Assembly: GCA_029856045.1 (NCBI GenBank)
Contig: JAHQWG010000047.1
Span: 188,001-252,000 of the forward strand
Length of the DNA stretch: 64,000 nucleotides
Origin: Promethearchaeia archaeon
GTDB lineage: Archaea; Asgardarchaeota; Lokiarchaeia; Sigyniarchaeales; SOKP01
Direction of reading: 5' to 3'
In this document: piece after piece, positions 7,122 through 62,408 of the stretch
Position numbering within the stretch: the stretch's first letter is position 1
Layout of the letters: every line of letters begins with the position of its first letter
Position numbers and translations under genes: made by a program
Notes under the pieces: generated by a model
What the model was told of the DNA's origin: nothing
Database searches by the model: none
The model's input: only the letters and a program-made list of their open reading frames with translations

Positions 7122-8327
7122 ATGAAAGTAATTATTATTGGAAATGGAGTAGCAGGTACTTTTTCTGCTCAAAATATTATAAACATTGATAAGAGTGTAG
7201 ATATTAAAATAATAACTGAAGAGAAATATCCGTATTATTCCAGACCCAAATTACCTGAATTAATCTCTGAACAAGTATCAATCAACGATATTATCGTTTT
7301 TAAAGAAGATTGGTATAGGAAGAAAAATATAAAATTAATTTTAGCAAGGAAAGTTTTAGGAATTCATCCAAGACAAAAGCACCTCCTTCTTGAAGATCAA
7401 AAAGAATTCATTCAATATGATAAGTTAATTATTGCAACTGGAAGCAAACCTAATATTCCTCCAATTAAAAACGCAGTTGAACTATTAAAAAAAGGAGTTT
7501 TTACTTTACGCAATATTGATGATGCCATAGAAATACAGAATTATATTAAAGGAAATAAAGCTAAGAAGGCGATCATAATTGGGGGGGGGTTATTGGGTTT
7601 AGAATTGGCAAAACAAATCAAAAATTGCAATCTTGACACAACGATAGTTGAATTTTTTCCAAGGCTTTTACCTCGTCAATTAGACGATGAATGCGCAGAG
7701 ATGTTAAAAGCTGAAATTGAAAAAATGGGAATAAAAGTTATATTAAATGCTACAACTGAGGAAATTTTAGGAACTGATTCAGTTGAAGGAATAAAGATAA
7801 AGGATGGACCTGAAATTAAAGCCGATACTGTATTAATTCAAGCAGGAATAATACCAAGAACCGAACTAGCAGAAAAAGCAAAAATTCAACAGAATCGAGG
7901 TGTTATTGTCAATCAATTTTTACAAACAAGCGATAAAGACATTTTTGCTGTTGGTGATGTGATAGAATACAAATCTCAAACATGGGGGATAATTCCAGCA
8001 TGTATTGAGCAATCAAGAATTGTTGCAGCATCAGTTTTAAATAAAAAAGAGATTCAATATAAGGGAACTACTCCAAAAACCACTCTAAAAATTGTTGGAA
8101 TTAATTTAACATCTATAGGAATATTTGATCCTTCACAAGAAGAGGATATTGGATGGGAGATTCTAAAAAAAGTTGATCAAAATAATTGCTGCTATCAAAA
8201 ATTCGTTTTAAAGGATAATAAATTAAAAGGAGCAATTCTTTTTGGAGAAACAAAATCAATTCCATTTGTAAATAAGAATATAAATTCAAATGTTAATAAG
8301 GAAGAGATTAATAAATTATTAGAATAA
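7122..8327 (+). CDS. FAD-dependent NAD(P)H oxidoreductase, probable NADH:rubredoxin reductase
   Basis: A 401-residue two-dinucleotide-fold flavoenzyme. The FAD motif VIIIGNGVAGTFSA starts at residue 3, the NAD motif AIIIGGGLLGLELA is near residue 150, and the second FAD motif DIFAVGDVIEY is near residue 270. The set matches the NADH:rubredoxin/nitrite reductase-like family (NirB N-terminal, Nror). Rubredoxin starts 131 bp downstream and a flavodiiron protein follows, so the chain NADH to this enzyme to rubredoxin to flavodiiron protein to O2 is the simplest reading. The C-terminal 80 residues are a reductase-type dimerization domain. A coenzyme A disulfide reductase role is less likely because no CxxxxC or SFXXC active-site cysteine is visible near the N-terminus. 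Confidence 0.85.
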   Translation: MKVIIIGNGVAGTFSAQNIINIDKSVDIKIITEEKYPYYSRPKLPELISEQVSINDIIVFKEDWYRKKNIKLILARKVLGIHPRQKHLLLEDQKEFIQYDKLIIATGSKPNIPPIKNAVELLKKGVFTLRNIDDAIEIQNYIKGNKAKKAIIIGGGLLGLELAKQIKNCNLDTTIVEFFPRLLPRQLDDECAEMLKAEIEKMGIKVILNATTEEILGTDSVEGIKIKDGPEIKADTVLIQAGIIPRTELAEKAKIQQNRGVIVNQFLQTSDKDIFAVGDVIEYKSQTWGIIPACIEQSRIVAASVLNKKEIQYKGTTPKTTLKIVGINLTSIGIFDPSQEEDIGWEILKKVDQNNCCYQKFVLKDNKLKGAILFGETKSIPFVNKNINSNVNKEEINKLLE

Positions 8328-8458
8328 AAACCAAAGTCCCTTTAAAAATAACACAATAAATATCTATTATTTTATTAATTTATAGTCTTAATATTTTTAA
8401 TATTTATTAATTTAAATTTCCTAATAATATATTAGAAAATATAAGAGGGGAAATAATT

Positions 8459-8593
8459 CTGGCAAAGTATGAATGTACGGCTTGTGGCTATATTTATGAC
8501 GAAGAAGTAGAAGGGACAAAATGGGAAGACCTCCCTGATGATTGGACATGCCCAGTATGCGGAGTAGGAAAAGATATGTTTGAAAAACTTTAA
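8459..8593 (+). CDS. Rubredoxin, with a non-AUG start
   Basis: A 44-residue rubredoxin, a small electron carrier with one Fe(SCys)4 site. Visible are CTACGYIYD and [15 protein letters not shown], the two CxxC knuckles, around an unusually short loop ([12 protein letters not shown]). There is no ATG, GTG or TTG in frame upstream. The codon just before AKYEC is CTG at 8459, which fits the common MAKYxC start of rubredoxins; an ATT lies one codon earlier at 8456. The ribosome site GAGGGG (8445-8450) is 8 nt from CTG and 5 nt from ATT. Its place between a flavin reductase and a flavodiiron protein indicates that it ferries electrons to the latter. Sequence identity is secure; start codon is not. 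Confidence 0.9.
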
Positions 8594-8783: not shown

Positions 8784-9989
8784 ATGATTTATACTGAATT
8801 AATGAAGGATATTTATTACACAGGTTATGTAGATTGGGAGGTAAGAAATTTTCACGGATATTCTACACACAGGGGGTCATCATATAATGCTTATTTGGTA
8901 AAAGGAGAAAAAAATGTTTTGATAGATACGGTTAAACGTCCTTTTTTTAATTATTTCTTGGAGAATATAAAGAGCATCATTAATCCGGAAAAAATTGATT
9001 ATCTTATCATGAATCATATTGAAATGGACCATTCTGGCTCATTTCCATTAATCATTAAATATCTTCCAAACGCTCAAATTATAGCTTCTAAAAAGGGTGT
9101 TGAAATTTTAAGAGATCATTTTCATAAAGAAGTTGATGATGAAGTATTCAATAATATTCGAGCTGTGAAAGAAGGAGATACTTTAGATATTGGTAACGGT
9201 AAAAAATTTACATTTGTTCCAATCCCAATGATCCATTGGCCTGATTCAATGGTATCATTTATGACAGACGAAAATGGTAAAAACATTTTATTTTCAAATG
9301 ATGCTTTTGGACAACATTTCGCCACTTCCTCACGTTGGGATGATGAGAATGATTTTGACGTAATAATGGAAGAAGCGGTTAAATATTATGCAAATATTTT
9401 ACTTCATTTATCGAAACTGATCTCAAATGTTTTACCCAAAGTAGGTTCTTTGCCAATAGAAATTATTTGCCCTTCGCATGGAGTGTGTTGGAGGAAACAT
9501 GTAGGAGATATAGTTGAAAGGTATAAAAAGTGGTCAGCAGGAGACATTGATAATAAAACAGCAATAATTATATATGATTCAATGTGGGGAAGCACCGAAA
9601 TTATCGCAAAAGCCCTATACAAGGAATTGCAATATAGAGGGATAAAAGTGAAACGATATAAATTAACTAATGCAGACTATTCTGACGTAATAACAGAAGC
9701 TATGCTTTCAAAAGCAATTATTGTAGGAAGTCCAACTTTAAATAATGGAATGTATCCAACAGTGGCAGAATATGTCTGTTATCAGAAAGGTTTAAAGCCA
9801 ATGAATAAAATAGGACTAGCCTTTGGTTCGTATGGATGGGGTGGTGGAGCTGTGAAAGAAATTATTAAAGAGTTAGAAGCTTCTAAAATTGAAGTTTTAG
9901 ACGAACATATAGAAATTAAATTTGTTCCAAAGCCAGAAGATCTTAATTTCAAAAAGATTATCGATAAACTAATTGAGAAAATGGTATAA
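8784..9989 (+). CDS. fprA: Flavodiiron protein (rubredoxin:oxygen oxidoreductase)
   Basis: Reduces O2 to water (or NO to N2O) in the cytosol using electrons from rubredoxin or F420. The 401 residues match class A flavodiiron proteins. The N-terminal metallo-beta-lactamase-like domain holds the diiron ligands in NHIEMDHSGSFP (H-x-E-x-D-H), with further His in PIPMIHWPDSM and PSHGVCW; the C-terminal flavodoxin domain starts near residue 255 with AIIIYDSMWGSTEIIAKAL and ends with SYGWGGGAVKEI. The ribosome site AAAAAAGGTGA sits 8-10 nt before ATG. The acyl-CoA dehydrogenase-rubredoxin gene follows after 12 nt, so the two are co-transcribed. The order reductase, rubredoxin, flavodiiron protein, rubredoxin fusion argues for O2 removal fed by rubredoxin. 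Confidence 0.95.
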   Translation: MIYTELMKDIYYTGYVDWEVRNFHGYSTHRGSSYNAYLVKGEKNVLIDTVKRPFFNYFLENIKSIINPEKIDYLIMNHIEMDHSGSFPLIIKYLPNAQIIASKKGVEILRDHFHKEVDDEVFNNIRAVKEGDTLDIGNGKKFTFVPIPMIHWPDSMVSFMTDENGKNILFSNDAFGQHFATSSRWDDENDFDVIMEEAVKYYANILLHLSKLISNVLPKVGSLPIEIICPSHGVCWRKHVGDIVERYKKWSAGDIDNKTAIIIYDSMWGSTEIIAKALYKELQYRGIKVKRYKLTNADYSDVITEAMLSKAIIVGSPTLNNGMYPTVAEYVCYQKGLKPMNKIGLAFGSYGWGGGAVKEIIKELEASKIEVLDEHIEIKFVPKPEDLNFKKIIDKLIEKMV

Positions 9990-10001: not shown

Positions 10002-11402
10002 ATGGATTTCAATTTAACAGACACTCAAAAAGAATTGCAAAAAAAAGCACAGGAATTTGCAATTAAGGAAATCTTGCCAGTAGCAGCTAGTTACGATGAA
10101 CATGGGAAATTTCCAATTGAAATTATTGAGAAAGCCTATAAGGCAGGTTTAGTGAATTTAGCAATTCCAAAAAAATATGGGGGACCTGGTTATGGTCTCT
10201 TAGAATCTGTAGTAGTTGTTGAGGAAATTGCTGCGGCTTGTCCCGGATTCGCAACATCCATATTTGCAAATAATTTAGGAGCAGAGCCAATAATTTTAGG
10301 AGGTAATGAAGAACAGAAAGATAGAATATTAGGAGAATTAGTAAAAAAATTTACTTTAATTTCTTTTGCTACCTCTGAACCTGGAATGGGTTCTGATGTT
10401 GCTGGAATTAATTGTCAAGCTCAAAAAGATGGAGAAGATTATATTTTAAATGGTACAAAGTATTGGATTACCAATGCAGGTTATGCAAAATATATTTCTC
10501 TATTTGCGACAACGGATCCAGCAAAAAAACATAAAGGAATATGTGCTTTTATTTTACCAACTAATTTAGTAGGAGTTAAAACAGGAAAACCAATTCCTAA
10601 ATTGGGGCATAGAGCATCGAATACCACTTCTGTGGTTTTAAAAAATGTGAGAATTCCAAAAGAAAATATATTGGCTCATCCAGGGAGAGGTTTTATTTTA
10701 GCAATGCAAACATTTGCTCACACTCGTCCAGCCATAGGAGCTTTTGCTACAGGTTTAGCAAGATCCGCTATGGAATATGTGATTGATTATGCAAAAAAAA
10801 GAGAGACTTTCGGAAGACCAATAGCAAATTATCAAGCTATTCAGTTCAAAATTGCAGAAATGTATAAAAATATTGAAGCTAGTCGATTATTAACCCATAA
10901 ATCAGCATGGGAGACAGATCAAGGGTTAGATAATACATTAAGTGCAGCATGTGCAAAAGCATTTGCCTCAGATGTTGCTATGCAAGTAGCTACTGAAGCT
11001 ATTCAAATAATGGGAGGTTACGGTTATATGAAAACATACCCATTAGAAAAGTTATTCAGAGATGCAAAACTATTTCAAATTTACGAAGGCACCTCAGAAA
11101 TCCAGAGAATAATTATTTCAAGATTTGTGATGAAACAATATAAACATGGAATGCCCAATTTATATGAACTCCCAAGAATTGAGGTAGAAAGAGAAGAAGA
11201 AGTTGAAATTCCGCCAATTTCATTAAAGACTAGTGAGGAACTGGGAGGAAAATACAGATGTACAGTGTGTGGATATATTTATGATCCTGTAAAAGGTGAT
11301 CCAGATAGTGGAATCTCTCCAGAAACTCCATTTGAAGAAATTCCAGATGATTGGCATTGTCCAGTATGCGGAGTTTCAAAGGATAAGTTTATAAAATTAT
11401 GA
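10002..11402 (+). CDS. Acyl-CoA dehydrogenase fused to a C-terminal rubredoxin domain
   Basis: FAD enzyme that oxidizes acyl-CoA to enoyl-CoA, carrying its own electron acceptor. Residues 1-380 are a full acyl-CoA dehydrogenase: [11 protein letters not shown] (122-132), WITNAG (155-160), KRETFGRP (266-273) and [10 protein letters not shown] with the likely catalytic base Glu362. A linker of charged and Pro residues (385-412) leads to a complete rubredoxin at 415-466 with CTVC (420-423) and CPVC (453-456). The gene is 12 nt behind the flavodiiron gene and its stop is close to the 2-oxoacid oxidoreductase start. The fusion implies direct electron transfer from FADH2 to rubredoxin and on to the flavodiiron protein or another acceptor, instead of ETF. 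Substrate chain length is unknown; branched or short acyl-CoA is plausible. Confidence 0.93.
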
Positions 11403-11426
11403 TTATTTTCTTGTAGGTGCGATAAA

Positions 11427-13085
11427 ATTACGGAAAAGAATGTATTCACATTTATAGTTGGGGGTAAAGCTGGTCAAGGTGTTAAAAAAGCAGGTTCAGT
11501 TGCTTCTCAACTTTTTATAAATAAGAGTCGTTTTGTATTTCAAATAGACGATTACATGAGTTTAATAAAAGGAGGACATAATTTCTCGATTGTTAGTACT
11601 TCTACTAGATGGATTAGTAGTCATTATATGAAAGCTGATCTAATTGTTAATTTTGATAAAAGAAGCTATGATAATCATATAGACCACCTTTCTGAAGGTG
11701 GTTTAATGGTCTATAATTCTGATATTAAAGGAAATATGGGTGGTATAGGTATTTCTTTAACAAGCGAAGCAAAAAGATTTCCTAATCCTAATTTAATGCT
11801 TGGAGTTGGTGCTATTGCTATATTAGGGGCGACCATTGGCGTTAATAAAACAGAGTTAAATGCATTAATAAAGAATGAATATTCTAAAGGTGTTAAAGAG
11901 AATATTTCTTATGCCAATATTATTTATGATATTGTTTATCCTATAATTGGAGGGAAATTCCAATTAGAAGGTGGATCTAAAAAAAGACCGAATATCTCGG
12001 GAAATCAAGCAATAGCATTAGGAGCAATAGCAGGTGGATTAGATTGTTATTACGCTTATCCTATGACACCAGCCACATCCATCCTACATTATCTTGCTGC
12101 AATAGCAGATGATTTTGGACTTGCAGTTATACATCCCGAAAATGAAATAGCAGTTATAAATATGGCTATAGGATCAACCTTTACTGGAGCGAGGTCAATG
12201 GTTGGTTCTAGCGGCGGAGGTTTTTCTTTGATGGCTGAGGGAATTTCATTAGCTGGTATAATCGAATCACCTGTATTAATTGTATTATCCATGAGACCTG
12301 GACCAGCTACGGGCGTTCCAACTTATACAGAACAAGGAGATTTAAATTTTGCTTTAAATGTGGGTCATGGGGAATTTTTACGCATCGTTGCTTCTCCAGG
12401 AACTATAGAGGAGGCATTTTTTCTTACAGCTCAAATGTTGGATTTAGTATGGAAGTTTCAAACTCCTGGAATATTACTCACAGAAAAACATTTATCAGAG
12501 AGTAGTATGACAGTCGATATAAATTTAAATGACACTATTTGGGCTGAACCACTGCTTTATAAAGATGGAGAATATAAAAGATATTTAGATACGAAGGATG
12601 GAATATCCCCCTTATTATTTCCACCATCAAAGGAAATACTCAAATGGAATAGTTATGAACATGATGAGTTTGGATTTACAACCGAAGATCCTCAATGGAT
12701 TAAAAGGATGCATGATAAACGAAATAAAAAGTTTAAATCATTAAAAAATTACCTTATGAAAAAAAAAACAATAAATATTTTTGGGGATAAGGGGCCAATA
12801 ATAATTACATATGGTTCAACGGTGATGAGCGTATTAGAAGCATTAAAGTATGGTAATATTGAGGCTAGAGTTGTACAACCAATTTTTTTGAGTCCGTTGC
12901 CTATTTGGGAGCTTGAAAAATTTAAAGACCAAGAAGTTATTGTTATAGAGCAAAGTGCTATAGGTCAATTTGCTAATTTACTTAAAGAAAATATGAATAT
13001 TCAATTAAAAAAAGTAATAAAGCAATACGATGGAAGACCTTTCGACCCAATAAAATTATCTAAAAAAATTAAGGATGTGGTATAA
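11427..13085 (+). CDS. 2-oxoacid:ferredoxin oxidoreductase, fused gamma-alpha subunit
   Basis: Oxidizes a 2-oxoacid with CoA to acyl-CoA and CO2, reducing ferredoxin. Residues 1-180 are the gamma domain, beginning TFIVGGKAGQGV; the alpha (pyrimidine-binding) domain follows with GNQAIALGAIAGG and YAYPMTPATSI. The 552-residue gamma-alpha fusion is like KorA/VorA of anaerobes. The frame is open from the previous stop at 11400-11402 but has no ATG, GTG or TTG before codon 44 (11556), which lies inside the conserved gamma domain. ATT at 11427 is preceded by AGGTG (11415-11419, 7 nt gap) and gives ITEKNVFTFIVGG, a normal family N-terminus, so AUU initiation is the best reading. With the beta gene next door it probably serves branched-chain, aryl or 2-oxoglutarate substrates. 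Confidence 0.9.
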   Translation: MTEKNVFTFIVGGKAGQGVKKAGSVASQLFINKSRFVFQIDDYMSLIKGGHNFSIVSTSTRWISSHYMKADLIVNFDKRSYDNHIDHLSEGGLMVYNSDIKGNMGGIGISLTSEAKRFPNPNLMLGVGAIAILGATIGVNKTELNALIKNEYSKGVKENISYANIIYDIVYPIIGGKFQLEGGSKKRPNISGNQAIALGAIAGGLDCYYAYPMTPATSILHYLAAIADDFGLAVIHPENEIAVINMAIGSTFTGARSMVGSSGGGFSLMAEGISLAGIIESPVLIVLSMRPGPATGVPTYTEQGDLNFALNVGHGEFLRIVASPGTIEEAFFLTAQMLDLVWKFQTPGILLTEKHLSESSMTVDINLNDTIWAEPLLYKDGEYKRYLDTKDGISPLLFPPSKEILKWNSYEHDEFGFTTEDPQWIKRMHDKRNKKFKSLKNYLMKKKTINIFGDKGPIIITYGSTVMSVLEALKYGNIEARVVQPIFLSPLPIWELEKFKDQEVIVIEQSAIGQFANLLKENMNIQLKKVIKQYDGRPFDPIKLSKKIKDVV

Positions 13086-34528: not shown

Positions 34529-34542
34529 CGAGAGGGAATGCT

Positions 34543-34743
34543 ATTCCGAAGAAATGTAAATGGTATAATTGCTGCCCATTGAAATTTTTTTACGAGCAGG
34601 ACAATTTAGAAGAAAAATGGGTCAGAGATTATTGTTGGATAGGCAATAAAAATTGCATAAGATATCAAAAAGAAGAAGCTGGAATACCTCATCCAGATAA
34701 TATGATGCCAGATGGTAGTATAAGAGAGGATTTAAAATATTAA
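34543..34743 (+). CDS. Small cysteine-rich protein with an ATT start
   Basis: A 66-residue frame with six cysteines: KKCKWYNCCPLKFFYE, then DYCWIGNKNCIRYQKEE, then PHPDNMMPDGSIREDL. I recall similar Cys-rich proteins of this pattern in other archaea but know no function; the Cys set may bind zinc or an Fe-S cluster. The frame has no ATG, GTG or TTG before the conserved first cysteines. ATT at 34543 stands 5 nt behind GAGAGGGA (34530-34537), giving IPKKCKWY, so AUU is the likely start. The HAD stop is 14 nt upstream. It overlaps the end of the convergent MBL gene by 12 bases. Confidence 0.7.
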   Translation: MPKKCKWYNCCPLKFFYEQDNLEEKWVRDYCWIGNKNCIRYQKEEAGIPHPDNMMPDGSIREDLKY

Positions 34744-56022: not shown

Positions 56023-56036
56023 TAGAGGGATATTAA

Positions 56037-57929
56037 ATTTCACTAGATTTCGCAATAAAGGACCTAATAAGAAAAAAAGAAACGACTATTCCAAATTTAG
56101 TTATAGTCATTTTAGTCTCAGCATTAGTAGTTTATTTCATATATTTTTGGAATTCTTTAGGAGTTAATATATTCTATGAAAATAAGTATTTATTCACAGC
56201 AAGCATCCGTGAAATTTACTACGAATTTAATGTCTTCATTTTAATTTTGGTGTTAATAATAGCCAGCACAGTTATAGTCATTATAATCTCGTCTTTATTT
56301 GCGTACAAAAAGAGAGATATTGCGATAATGAAATCTTTAGGAGCTTTGCGCGAGAAATTTTATAGCTTTTATATGAAAGAAGCATTAATTATTTATCTCG
56401 TTGGCTTTTTAATTGGATTAATTATAGGGTTATTATCTTATGGATTAACTAGTTTAATTTTATTATTTCTTAATTTTTCAGTAAATATTTATATAGATTT
56501 TTTTTGGATTCCTATTTTTTTCTTCTTAACTCTATTCGCCGTTTATGTCATAAGCGGTTATGTATTAAGAAAAATCACTCAACAAAAGATTCAGTGGATA
56601 TTTTCGAAAGATATACAACATGATTTTGATGCACAAAAGACATTAACATTAATCCCTAGATGGCTTTCTCGATTTGGATTTAATCTAAAAATTGCCATTA
56701 CCAATTTAATTAGAAGAAAAGGTGAATTTAAGAGATTTTTAATTTTATTTGGTACAATAATGACTCTTATCTTTACACTTACGATTGGGGTTTTTGTGTT
56801 GACTTCATCTGCAGAAAATTGGATATCTAGATCACAAGGAAATAACTTAATTGTAATTGGTCATAGAGATGTAGTATATAATTATTCTTTAATGTATCAA
56901 AAATTTTCTGATTTAAATATTGATACCAATGAACCAAAATTTAACTTTACCAAATCAAATTACTTATTTGATTCAAGTATTTTATCCTCATTCGAATCAA
57001 TTGAAGGTATTCAAAAAATAGATAAAAGATTAATTACTTTTTCAACAATAAAAGAAATTAACAGTTCAATAATTATTGAAGGACAGTATATCTCTGTAGG
57101 AGAAGATAGATACGCCACAATTCCTTTAATTGGAGTTGATCCAAATGAGATGTGTCAAGATTTTGAAATTGAAGGGGTATTTTTTACAGATGAAGATGGC
57201 TATGATAATATTACAATTGGCGATTCTCTTGCAAGATTCACATTTTCTGTTCCATTATATCAGAAATTAAGAGTAGGAAATGGCACTTCATATCACATTA
57301 AAGGAATTTTAATCGATAGTTTTAATAATGGATACACAGCATATTTTGATTTAGAAACGTTAAATGAAGAAATGGGCTTACCCATAGATAATATTAATAT
57401 CATTCTGATTCAAGCTAATTCAATAGAAATTGATGCTTTGGAAAATCAACTGGAAACAATAATTAAAAATGAATTAGGTCAAGAATTTATTGCAATGAAT
57501 ATGAATAATGTTTTTAATCAGAATTTATTCAAGTTAAAAACATTGAATATTATCCCTATAATTCTTATTATCCTTTTCTCAGCAATTTCATACCTTTCAT
57601 TATATAATTATCAGAAAGTAGCTTTGCATGAAAAGGTTAAGGATTTTATAATTATGAAAGCAATTGGTGCAAAAAGCAAATCACTAAAGCGAATTTTATT
57701 CATAGAGAACTTCTTTATTATAATTATATCATCCGCTTATTCTATAGGAGTATCAATGTTAATAAACATTTTATTTTTATTTGAAAGAGTTACTTTGCCA
57801 CCATTTTATGAACCGTTATTAATATTTATTGGATATCTTTCAATCTTCTTAATATTAAATTTCCTCAGTATAATACCTTTGAGTAAAAAGATAAAGCAAT
57901 TTTCAATTAAGGATTTTGAAGTTTATTAA
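56037..57929 (+). CDS. FtsX-type ABC transporter permease with an ATT start
   Basis: Membrane component of the preceding ATPase. From ATT 56037 (GAGGGA ribosome site at 56025-56030, 6 nt gap), the protein is 630 residues: ISLDFAIKDLIRKKETT, the first transmembrane helix (about 25-45), then helices around residues 72-96, 120-145 and 155-175, and a second FtsX-like module from RRKGEFKRFLILFGTIM with a large extracytoplasmic part and C-terminal helices (ILIILFSAISYLSLYN and others). The first standard start is ATG 56247, which lies within the first helix group, and would remove the conserved N-terminus. The start ISLDFAIKDL matches the MSLxxA-K-x-L beginning of MacB-type permeases. The TCA after ATT fits Ser2. 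Confidence 0.85.
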   Translation: MSLDFAIKDLIRKKETTIPNLVIVILVSALVVYFIYFWNSLGVNIFYENKYLFTASIREIYYEFNVFILILVLIIASTVIVIIISSLFAYKKRDIAIMKSLGALREKFYSFYMKEALIIYLVGFLIGLIIGLLSYGLTSLILLFLNFSVNIYIDFFWIPIFFFLTLFAVYVISGYVLRKITQQKIQWIFSKDIQHDFDAQKTLTLIPRWLSRFGFNLKIAITNLIRRKGEFKRFLILFGTIMTLIFTLTIGVFVLTSSAENWISRSQGNNLIVIGHRDVVYNYSLMYQKFSDLNIDTNEPKFNFTKSNYLFDSSILSSFESIEGIQKIDKRLITFSTIKEINSSIIIEGQYISVGEDRYATIPLIGVDPNEMCQDFEIEGVFFTDEDGYDNITIGDSLARFTFSVPLYQKLRVGNGTSYHIKGILIDSFNNGYTAYFDLETLNEEMGLPIDNINIILIQANSIEIDALENQLETIIKNELGQEFIAMNMNNVFNQNLFKLKTLNIIPIILIILFSAISYLSLYNYQKVALHEKVKDFIIMKAIGAKSKSLKRILFIENFFIIIISSAYSIGVSMLINILFLFERVTLPPFYEPLLIFIGYLSIFLILNFLSIIPLSKKIKQFSIKDFEVY

Positions 57930-60556: not shown

Positions 60557-60749
60557 TATATCACTTTTTTCTTATTTTTTCTTTTTTATTTCTAGTATCT
60601 AATATAAATATTATCCCATTTAAATTTTATCCCATTTAGATTTTTGTTTCAAAATTATAAAATTGTTAAATTAAGGTAATGATAATCTTTTTTAGTTATA
60701 TAAAATTTCGTTTAATTAAGATTTACAGTTTTCTTACGGGACGATTCAA

Positions 60750-62408
60750 ATTTCTGAAAAAGATATTGAAGACACTCTAGAAGTAGAAGATCAGATTCAA
60801 GTGTTTATCGATCAAATTTTAACGTCAGAAAATAAAGAAAATAAGAAATTCTTAATTTTAGAATTAATAAAATTTATCTCCACTGAAGCCAAAAAGATTG
60901 CAGAAATGGGAGACTTTTTTGAAGCTGCTGAAATTTTATCATCTACAGCAAATTTATTGGAAGAAATTGATCAAGATATTGCAAAAGAACTCTTAAAGAA
61001 TGCGATGAAATATTGGGATAAACAAATAGAGACTTGTAAAAAACAAGCTAAATTTCTTGAAATTGCTGAATTATATATTAAACAAGCAGATATACATCGT
61101 GACATATTTAGGAATACAAAGAAAGAGCAAGAAAATATCCTTTATGCTATCCAATTCCTAAATCATGAAGCCGATGTTCGTCTTGAATTTAATGAGTTAG
61201 AAGCAGTTGCTCGAACATTTCAAAATATAGCGAATTTATACAACCGGATTTCAAATTTTAGGAAAGCAATTAAGTTCAACAAGATGGCAATTAAGCTTGC
61301 TAAGGAGCACGGCTATTATCACATCCTTCAATACACCTATCAGCAATTATTTTCATGTTTTTCTGATTTGGGCGATTATAATTCAGCTAAAGAAATTGTA
61401 TTAGTTGGAATTGAATATTTCGCTTCAGAGGCTTTAAAATATGAGCAAAAGGACATTCTCAACCTAAATTTGTCCGCACTTTACCAAATTATAAAAAAAT
61501 TATATTTTATGCTAAATGATACGGATAACTATGTTTCTTATGCAAAAAAAGAAGCGAGTACATATATAAGCATTGCACAATCCTTAGGAAATGATCCTAA
61601 TGATGCAGAAAAAAAAGGAACTCTATATCGCGGAGCAGCATTATGCTATAATGAAATTCAAAATAATTTAATCGAATGTGCCTCCTGTTTTTTCCTAGCT
61701 GGAAATTTCTTTCATTCAATCCAAAAGAATAGTGATGCAGCAGAAAATTATAATAATGCAGCGATGGTATTTGGGCAAATCGGTAATTACCAAAAAGCTT
61801 TTGAATTATATGTTAAGGCAGCATTAAATTATCAAAATAACAATGAAGTTCGGAATTGTCTTGAAAATTTCTTGAATGCATATGATCTTACTCTTAAAGA
61901 GGATATTGAGTTTAATAGAACTGAACTATATAATTATCTTATTCAAGGACTAAATAAATACGCTAAAGAAAAAATAAAAACAAAAGAATTCTATTCAGCA
62001 GCAACGTCTATTTTAGAAAGTCTTAAATTTTACTCAAGTTTCGATAGTGTGCGTTTTAGTCCAGAAATATTTGCTGAGATGGTTAAGAGGGTTTCGAAAA
62101 ATTACTATAAAGCAGCAGATTTTAAAACCATTCGACCACGCAATATACGATTTAGTTATTTTTTAGCTGCGCTATCACGCCTTTTATTAAAACAAATTGA
62201 TGAAGCTAAAGAAATTATGAAAGAGGTTAATACGAATGGTAGCCGAGTGGAAAAATATAAAGCAATTGTAAATCAAATCATTGAATGGATTAATGAAAAT
62301 AAACAAATCTTAATATCGGATTTTCCCAAAAATATACAAAAATTTATCAATCGATATGATGAAGTGAAATATATTATTTCTTTATTTGAAAATATTTATG
62401 ATTCATAA
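60750..62408 (+). CDS. TPR-like helical-repeat protein, probably with an ATT start
   Basis: A mostly helical protein of about 552 residues made of TPR-like pairs, for example KQAKFLEIAELYIKQADIHR, FQNIANLYNRISNFRKAIKF and AENYNNAAMVFGQIGNYQKA. These resemble TPR/soluble NSF attachment-like repeats and usually bind other proteins. The standard start GTG 60801 has no ribosome site, and the frame stays open back to a stop at 60717-60719. ATT 60750 stands 8 nt behind GGGA (60738-60741) and would give ISEKDIEDTLEVEDQ. It is the weakest of the ATT cases. No enzyme motif is visible. Confidence 0.7.
   Translation: MSEKDIEDTLEVEDQIQVFIDQILTSENKENKKFLILELIKFISTEAKKIAEMGDFFEAAEILSSTANLLEEIDQDIAKELLKNAMKYWDKQIETCKKQAKFLEIAELYIKQADIHRDIFRNTKKEQENILYAIQFLNHEADVRLEFNELEAVARTFQNIANLYNRISNFRKAIKFNKMAIKLAKEHGYYHILQYTYQQLFSCFSDLGDYNSAKEIVLVGIEYFASEALKYEQKDILNLNLSALYQIIKKLYFMLNDTDNYVSYAKKEASTYISIAQSLGNDPNDAEKKGTLYRGAALCYNEIQNNLIECASCFFLAGNFFHSIQKNSDAAENYNNAAMVFGQIGNYQKAFELYVKAALNYQNNNEVRNCLENFLNAYDLTLKEDIEFNRTELYNYLIQGLNKYAKEKIKTKEFYSAATSILESLKFYSSFDSVRFSPEIFAEMVKRVSKNYYKAADFKTIRPRNIRFSYFLAALSRLLLKQIDEAKEIMKEVNTNGSRVEKYKAIVNQIIEWINENKQILISDFPKNIQKFINRYDEVKYIISLFENIYDS

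Follow-up and report, generated by a model that had tools for sequence, protein, structure and literature searches.

The 64-kb stretch of DNA analysed here (from contig JAHQWG010000047.1; hereafter the window) comes from the genome of a Lokiarchaeal member of the Asgard archaea, the closest known relatives of eukaryotes. The genome (G000; 3.34 Mb, 55 contigs, ~29% GC) contains genes that appear to begin at AUU or AUA rather than at a standard start codon, and one of the two clearest of these in the window encodes a KorA-like 2-oxoacid:acceptor oxidoreductase subunit alpha, a gamma-alpha fusion of 552 amino acids (11427..13085, forward strand, as are the other non-standard starts of the window with their genes). 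The protein scores above the cut-off of TIGR03710, with residues 7-548 matching positions 2-561 of the 561 in the profile, and carries a POR domain from residue 15 and a POR_N domain from residue 199; its closest named matches are in the Candidatus Lokiarchaeota metagenome-assembled genomes 6H3_1 (96% amino-acid identity) and 2R3_4 (95%). Its frame opens behind an in-frame TGA at 11400-11402 and contains no ATG, GTG, or TTG until 43 codons past an ATT at 11427..11429, which lies 7 nucleotides downstream of the Shine-Dalgarno (SD) sequence AGGTG (11415..11419). The first-pass annotation of this DNA had named that ATT as the only reasonable start, and checking its coordinates base by base confirmed all of them.

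The same picture recurs at 56037, where the gene for an FtsX-like ABC transporter permease of 630 amino acids (56037..57929; PF02687) opens with an ATT (56037..56039) directly abutted by a TAA stop (56034-56036). The SD GAGGG (56025..56029) is 7 nucleotides upstream, no standard start occurs until 70 codons in, and same-genus orthologues align from residue 1. As the first-pass annotation had claimed, this ATT is the only reasonable start, and we regard 11427 and 56037 as the two airtight cases in the window. The site at 34543 also bore out its earlier description and is a good case: an ATT (34543-34545) 6 nucleotides downstream of GAGAGGG (34530..34536) begins a Cys-rich protein of 66 amino acids (34543..34743), the first standard start being a TTG at codon +12. 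Of 15 relatives, 13 have orthologues of this protein whose alignment begins at residues 1-5; it matched no Pfam or NCBIfam family, and a plasmid search gave no match. At 8456 the earlier claim stood in part. The rubredoxin gene (8456..8593; PF00301) has an SD (GAGGGG, 8445..8450) and no nearby standard start, the next being 40 codons in, but its ATT is followed immediately by CTG, and CTG at 8459 is at least as likely a start as ATT at 8456 because position 2 of NF045768 aligns with the residue after CTG. The weakest site is that of a TPR/SNAP-like protein (60750..62408; possible ATT start at 60750): its coordinates hold and same-genus orthologues align from residues 1-2, but there is no clear SD, and the ATT at 60744, also in frame, could serve instead. 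Gene calling gave 52 genes in the window, or 53 with the short gene at 34543, of which ~5 are affected by non-standard starts.

Some neighbours of these genes were assigned from their translations only. The segment 10002-11402 encodes an acyl-CoA dehydrogenase with a C-terminal rubredoxin domain, and near it lie the free rubredoxin (8456-8593), a flavodiiron-like protein (8784-9989), and an NADH:rubredoxin-type oxidoreductase (7122-8327); the cluster looks like one redox operon.

Comparison with relatives supports these starts. For the KorA-like gene, both ATT and SD are kept in two sister-species assemblies (G001, G002); another genus (G008) has ATA behind GGTGA, and four others (G006, G007, G009, G011) have ATG one codon later. 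Across 140 orthologue pairs between this genome and G004, SD plus ATT or ATA is kept in 7 while the flanks differ. The two genomes, whose ATG-to-other substitutions (at 93% identity) are too few for a spectrum, yield one clean ATG/ATT pair, in which the leader is identical. Taken roughly, the affected share of genes is 5% by these pairs and 9% by the window. The sharpest test is hypA, because the Pfam HypA model aligns residue 2 to profile position 2 and the Met-His N-terminus of HypA binds nickel. In this genome the gene (MHEF...) begins GGGGAGAGAAAAAA-ATA-CAC-GAG-TTC. Motif searches place an ATA start in every one of the five species of this genus, the most divergent at 74% protein identity; G006 has ATT, and in 7 further genomes of the family this very codon is NTG. 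The sets matching AUH (AUA, AUC, or AUU) and NTG motifs were mutually exclusive, and G007 matched neither. Turnover with ATG or NTG at a single codon is thus seen in hypA, in the one ATG-ATT pair and, with an offset of one codon, in the KorA-like gene.

Similar starts occur outside the window, in genes for a short-chain dehydrogenase (AAAGGTGATAAAAA-ATT), an ABC ATPase (AAGGTGGTCAAAA-ATT), a pyruvate-formate-lyase-like enzyme (AGGTGGATAAATT-ATT), an NAD epimerase (AGGTGATTTAC-ATT), a response regulator (GGAGGTGATATAAAA-ATA), and an AMP-dependent ligase (GGTGAATTGAA-ATT), in whose G004 orthologue a stop immediately precedes the ATT. Two coiled-coil paralogues read ATA AGT ATT AAT TGG and ATT AGC GTT GAA TGG at the same aligned position. 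Separately, an OLA1/YchF-like GTPase (C27 of this genome, minus strand, open reading frame (ORF) opening at 380124) has a conserved N-terminus that a stop cuts just upstream of the P-loop; this is a frameshift, a sequence error, or a split gene.

The first-pass annotation had proposed a genome-wide count of SD-led ATT genes without a standard start, and we ran such a count on 1.72 Mb, about half of the genome, to which all genome-wide tests here refer. ORFs were called by codon usage and kept if they had an SD 5-mer near the frame opening and no ATG, GTG, or TTG within the start window or the 8 codons after it. Of the 35 genes that pass, 26 carry ATT or ATA in the start window. At SD spacing, ATT was observed 18 times versus 6.6 expected (p = 1e-4) and ATA 14 times versus 4.6 (p = 2e-4), and no other codon was enriched (best p ~0.1). 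With permuted SD 5-mers, the number of ATT/ATA genes averaged 10.3 ± 3.3 with a maximum of 20, so that none of 300 trials reached the 25 observed under this control, whose bookkeeping differs slightly from that of the enrichment test (25 vs 26 genes); the control is conservative because permuted words still hold SD-like sequences. Behind the same SD words stand 126 ATG, 31 TTG, and 10 GTG starts, and AUU and AUA therefore account for a sizeable fraction of the starts led by an SD, but for only a few percent of all genes. AUA, missed by the first-pass annotation, is used about as often as AUU; its proposal of AUU starts stands, but not of AUU alone, the set being AUU and AUA with AUC and perhaps CUG. 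This test replaced weaker ones: a first SD scan by duplex energy was of low power, strong SDs being absent from most genes, and a strong-SD scan with a loose coding-loss limit was diluted by SD-like words inside genes. G075 and mixed 20-kb stretches offered too few sites for the enrichment test.

The anti-SD and the initiator tRNA look ordinary. The 16S 3' end GGATCACCTCC, a normal anti-SD, is present in the genome, as is an initiator-type tRNA gene that has a CAU anticodon, a GGG/CCC anticodon stem, and an intron. The idea of an unusual initiator tRNA was rejected, the one found being unremarkable apart from this intron, which sits in the anticodon loop (C27, minus strand, ~339375 of the reverse complement). 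A default tRNA scan of 60 loci gave few tRNAs, so that tRNA introns are probably common. Nor does anything suggest that AUA has been reassigned to methionine in elongation, although conserved Met positions were not scored; internal AUA makes up 3.4% of coding codons.

The gene for aIF1, which lies outside the window and gives the strongest result of the analysis, was examined because this factor opposes non-AUG initiation, as reported for S. solfataricus and consistent with data for P. abyssi (PMC6237735). It is present in all genomes of at least 90% completeness and no more than 5% contamination, and gave no match in G086 and G089 of the family (6-7% contamination); the idea that lax initiation results from a loss of aIF1 was accordingly rejected. 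All 20 genomes read, from 8 genera of the family, start aIF1 itself at an AUN that precedes the first Cys of the zinc ribbon by 6-7 codons and has T, C, or A as third base, never G (G085, L173, was left out of the scoring, the N-terminal part of its aIF1 reading as N). In most genomes the upstream stop lies only 7-9 codons ahead of that Cys, and 15 of the 20 have no ATG, GTG, or TTG in between; several genera share the conserved leader AAAGGTTGTGA. For six other gene families compared in these stretches, 28 of 33 positions are ATG. Because the third base varies among T, C, and A while G never appears, the lineage-wide non-AUG start of aIF1 suggests selection. An AUA start of aIF1 is found in other Asgard families as well (G022, G023, G024, G067, G069, G016).

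Among these, the distant families represented by G024 (L140), G023 (L142), and G022 (L137) have the aIF1 ATA behind a strong AAAGGAGG, and the aIF1 start in G153 (L156) is CTG. Non-AUG aIF1 starts may have arisen several times.

We consider it very probable that this Lokiarchaeal lineage initiates translation at AUU and AUA, with negative feedback as the most likely function of the AUH start of aIF1. Several observations weigh against this. In 4 of 5 congeners a potentially usable GTG precedes the aIF1 ATA by 4 codons (G003 is without it), and the aIF1 leader of G097 (L176) has an in-frame GTG inside its SD (GAGGTG) that could also serve as a start; gene finders choosing such SD-internal GTG codons may hide AUU and AUA starts. 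The trait is not universal, since related families have ATG (G070, G015) or TTG (G018) at the aIF1 start. Finally, a start model fitted to all codons by expectation-maximization did not separate ATT and ATA sharply from the coding background (ratios ~1.1 and ~1.0, other codons mostly <1, ATG 27.6) and was too noisy for a clean estimate.

The first-pass annotation had left the choice between genome-wide use and a systematic sequence or assembly error, in which ATG would have been turned into ATT or ATA. A 55-contig assembly might invite the second view, and error would predict ATG in close relatives with ATT here alone. Instead, congeners share ATT or ATA in independently made assemblies whose flanks differ, ATG or NTG at the same or an adjacent codon appears only in other genera, and the aIF1 AUH spans 20 genomes and 8 genera. 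This, like the codon enrichment, supports genome-wide use; error is already refuted for the KorA-like gene, hypA, and aIF1, and its overall likelihood is negligible. Similarly improbable is a hidden upstream start in another frame, joined to the gene by frameshifting or intron removal: out-of-frame ATGs do lie near 11399 and 34538, but they soon meet stops (TAG at 11414; for 34538, a TGA after 14 codons). The sites showed no slippery or bulge-helix element in common, at 56037 a stop abuts the ATT, and SD spacing points to the ATT.

One could also envision that these genes simply start at internal ATG, GTG, or TTG codons, giving shorter products and leaving the upstream frame untranslated. Standard gene callers would pick such starts, and a few of the SD sites do have a standard start soon after. 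However, internal starts would strip 43 residues from the gamma domain of the KorA-like protein and 70 from the permease; HypA would lose His2, and aIF1, in most genomes, its zinc ribbon. In relatives, NTG stands exactly at the hypA ATT/ATA codon and the KorA-like gene has ATG at the adjacent codon, and differences between this genome and G004 in the disputed region leave the protein largely unchanged. We thus consider this very unlikely. The alternative that deserves more weight, though we still think it unlikely, accepts AUU and AUA starts as real but sees in them a neutral decay of ATG under AT pressure, tolerated where the SD is strong, with no regulatory meaning for aIF1. The ~29% GC genome and the switching of ordinary genes between ATG and AUH among genera are in keeping with it. 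Neutral decay accounts poorly for aIF1, where AUH is found in 20 of 20 genomes while other gene families mostly have ATG, where the third base is T, C, or A and never G, suggesting selection for a non-AUG codon, and where AUA recurs in other Asgard families.

If AUU and AUA are used as starts, the SD sequence would place an initiation complex that accepts these codons, more rarely AUC, and possibly CUG, and the ordinary CAU initiator tRNA would presumably decode them as methionine with a tolerated third-position mismatch. About 5% of genes in this genome, and a larger share of the SD-led ones, would begin in this way. From the sequences we infer initiation at AUU and AUA, with methionine as the first residue, and also feedback at aIF1. 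Abundant aIF1 would suppress initiation at its own AUH codon and scarce aIF1 would relieve it, and such negative feedback, resembling that of IF3 at infC, is the most likely function of the AUH start. More tentatively, and with somewhat less than an even chance in our estimation, aIF1 could control a whole layer of translation, in which dozens of AUU and AUA genes (hypA, the 2-oxoacid oxidoreductase, ABC transporters, and others) would form a regulon that rises and falls with aIF1 on top of its own feedback.

Bacteria are known to use AUU and AUA starts, though rarely. The closest parallel there is infC, whose AUU start is subject to feedback by IF3 (PMC9410913); in E. coli and S. aureus, as in the present lineage, the gene of a fidelity factor begins with AUU or AUA behind an SD, and the C-terminal domain of IF3 has a role similar to that of aIF1/eIF1 (PMC9410913, PMC13009471). 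Unlike IF3, aIF1 belongs to the SUI1 protein family, and feedback in archaea is a prediction. E. coli, furthermore, has two AUU genes (PMC9410913), whereas in the Lokiarchaeal genome many ordinary genes appear to use AUU or AUA. Staphylococcus cvfC1, ccpN, and citZ likewise back a weak AUU or AUA start with an extended SD, and such starts work at ~10-30% of AUG in S. aureus (PMC13009471); that genome has four sites, in contrast to the dozens predicted here. Eukaryotic eIF1 is an orthologous SUI1 factor that is autoregulated and whose own start is kept weak across its lineage (PMC5823381, PMC6237735), but there the weakness lies in the flanks of an AUG, while in Lokiarchaeal aIF1 the codon itself is non-AUG and has an SD. 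Reviews give AUG, GUG, and UUG as archaeal start codons, with SD-led and leaderless mRNAs coexisting and SD sparse in Lokiarchaea (PMC7531240, PMC12993045); AUU and AUA did not turn up in them, and annotation-based surveys are blind to these codons. We found no report of AUU or AUA starts in Asgard archaea or of a non-AUG aIF1 start in a literature search that left most subscription journals outside, so that novelty is unproven.

If AUU and AUA initiation is borne out, N-terminal annotation would be systematically wrong for some percent of genes in this Asgard family, because standard gene finders allow only ATG, GTG, and TTG; short genes such as that of rubredoxin would be missed altogether, and aIF1 would be annotated in truncated form in most species. 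The self-limitation of a fidelity factor, as seen in bacterial IF3 and eukaryotic eIF1, would extend to the archaeal lineage closest to eukaryotes, where the loop would combine codon identity as in bacteria with a factor of eukaryotic type, and the evolutionary question would become testable.
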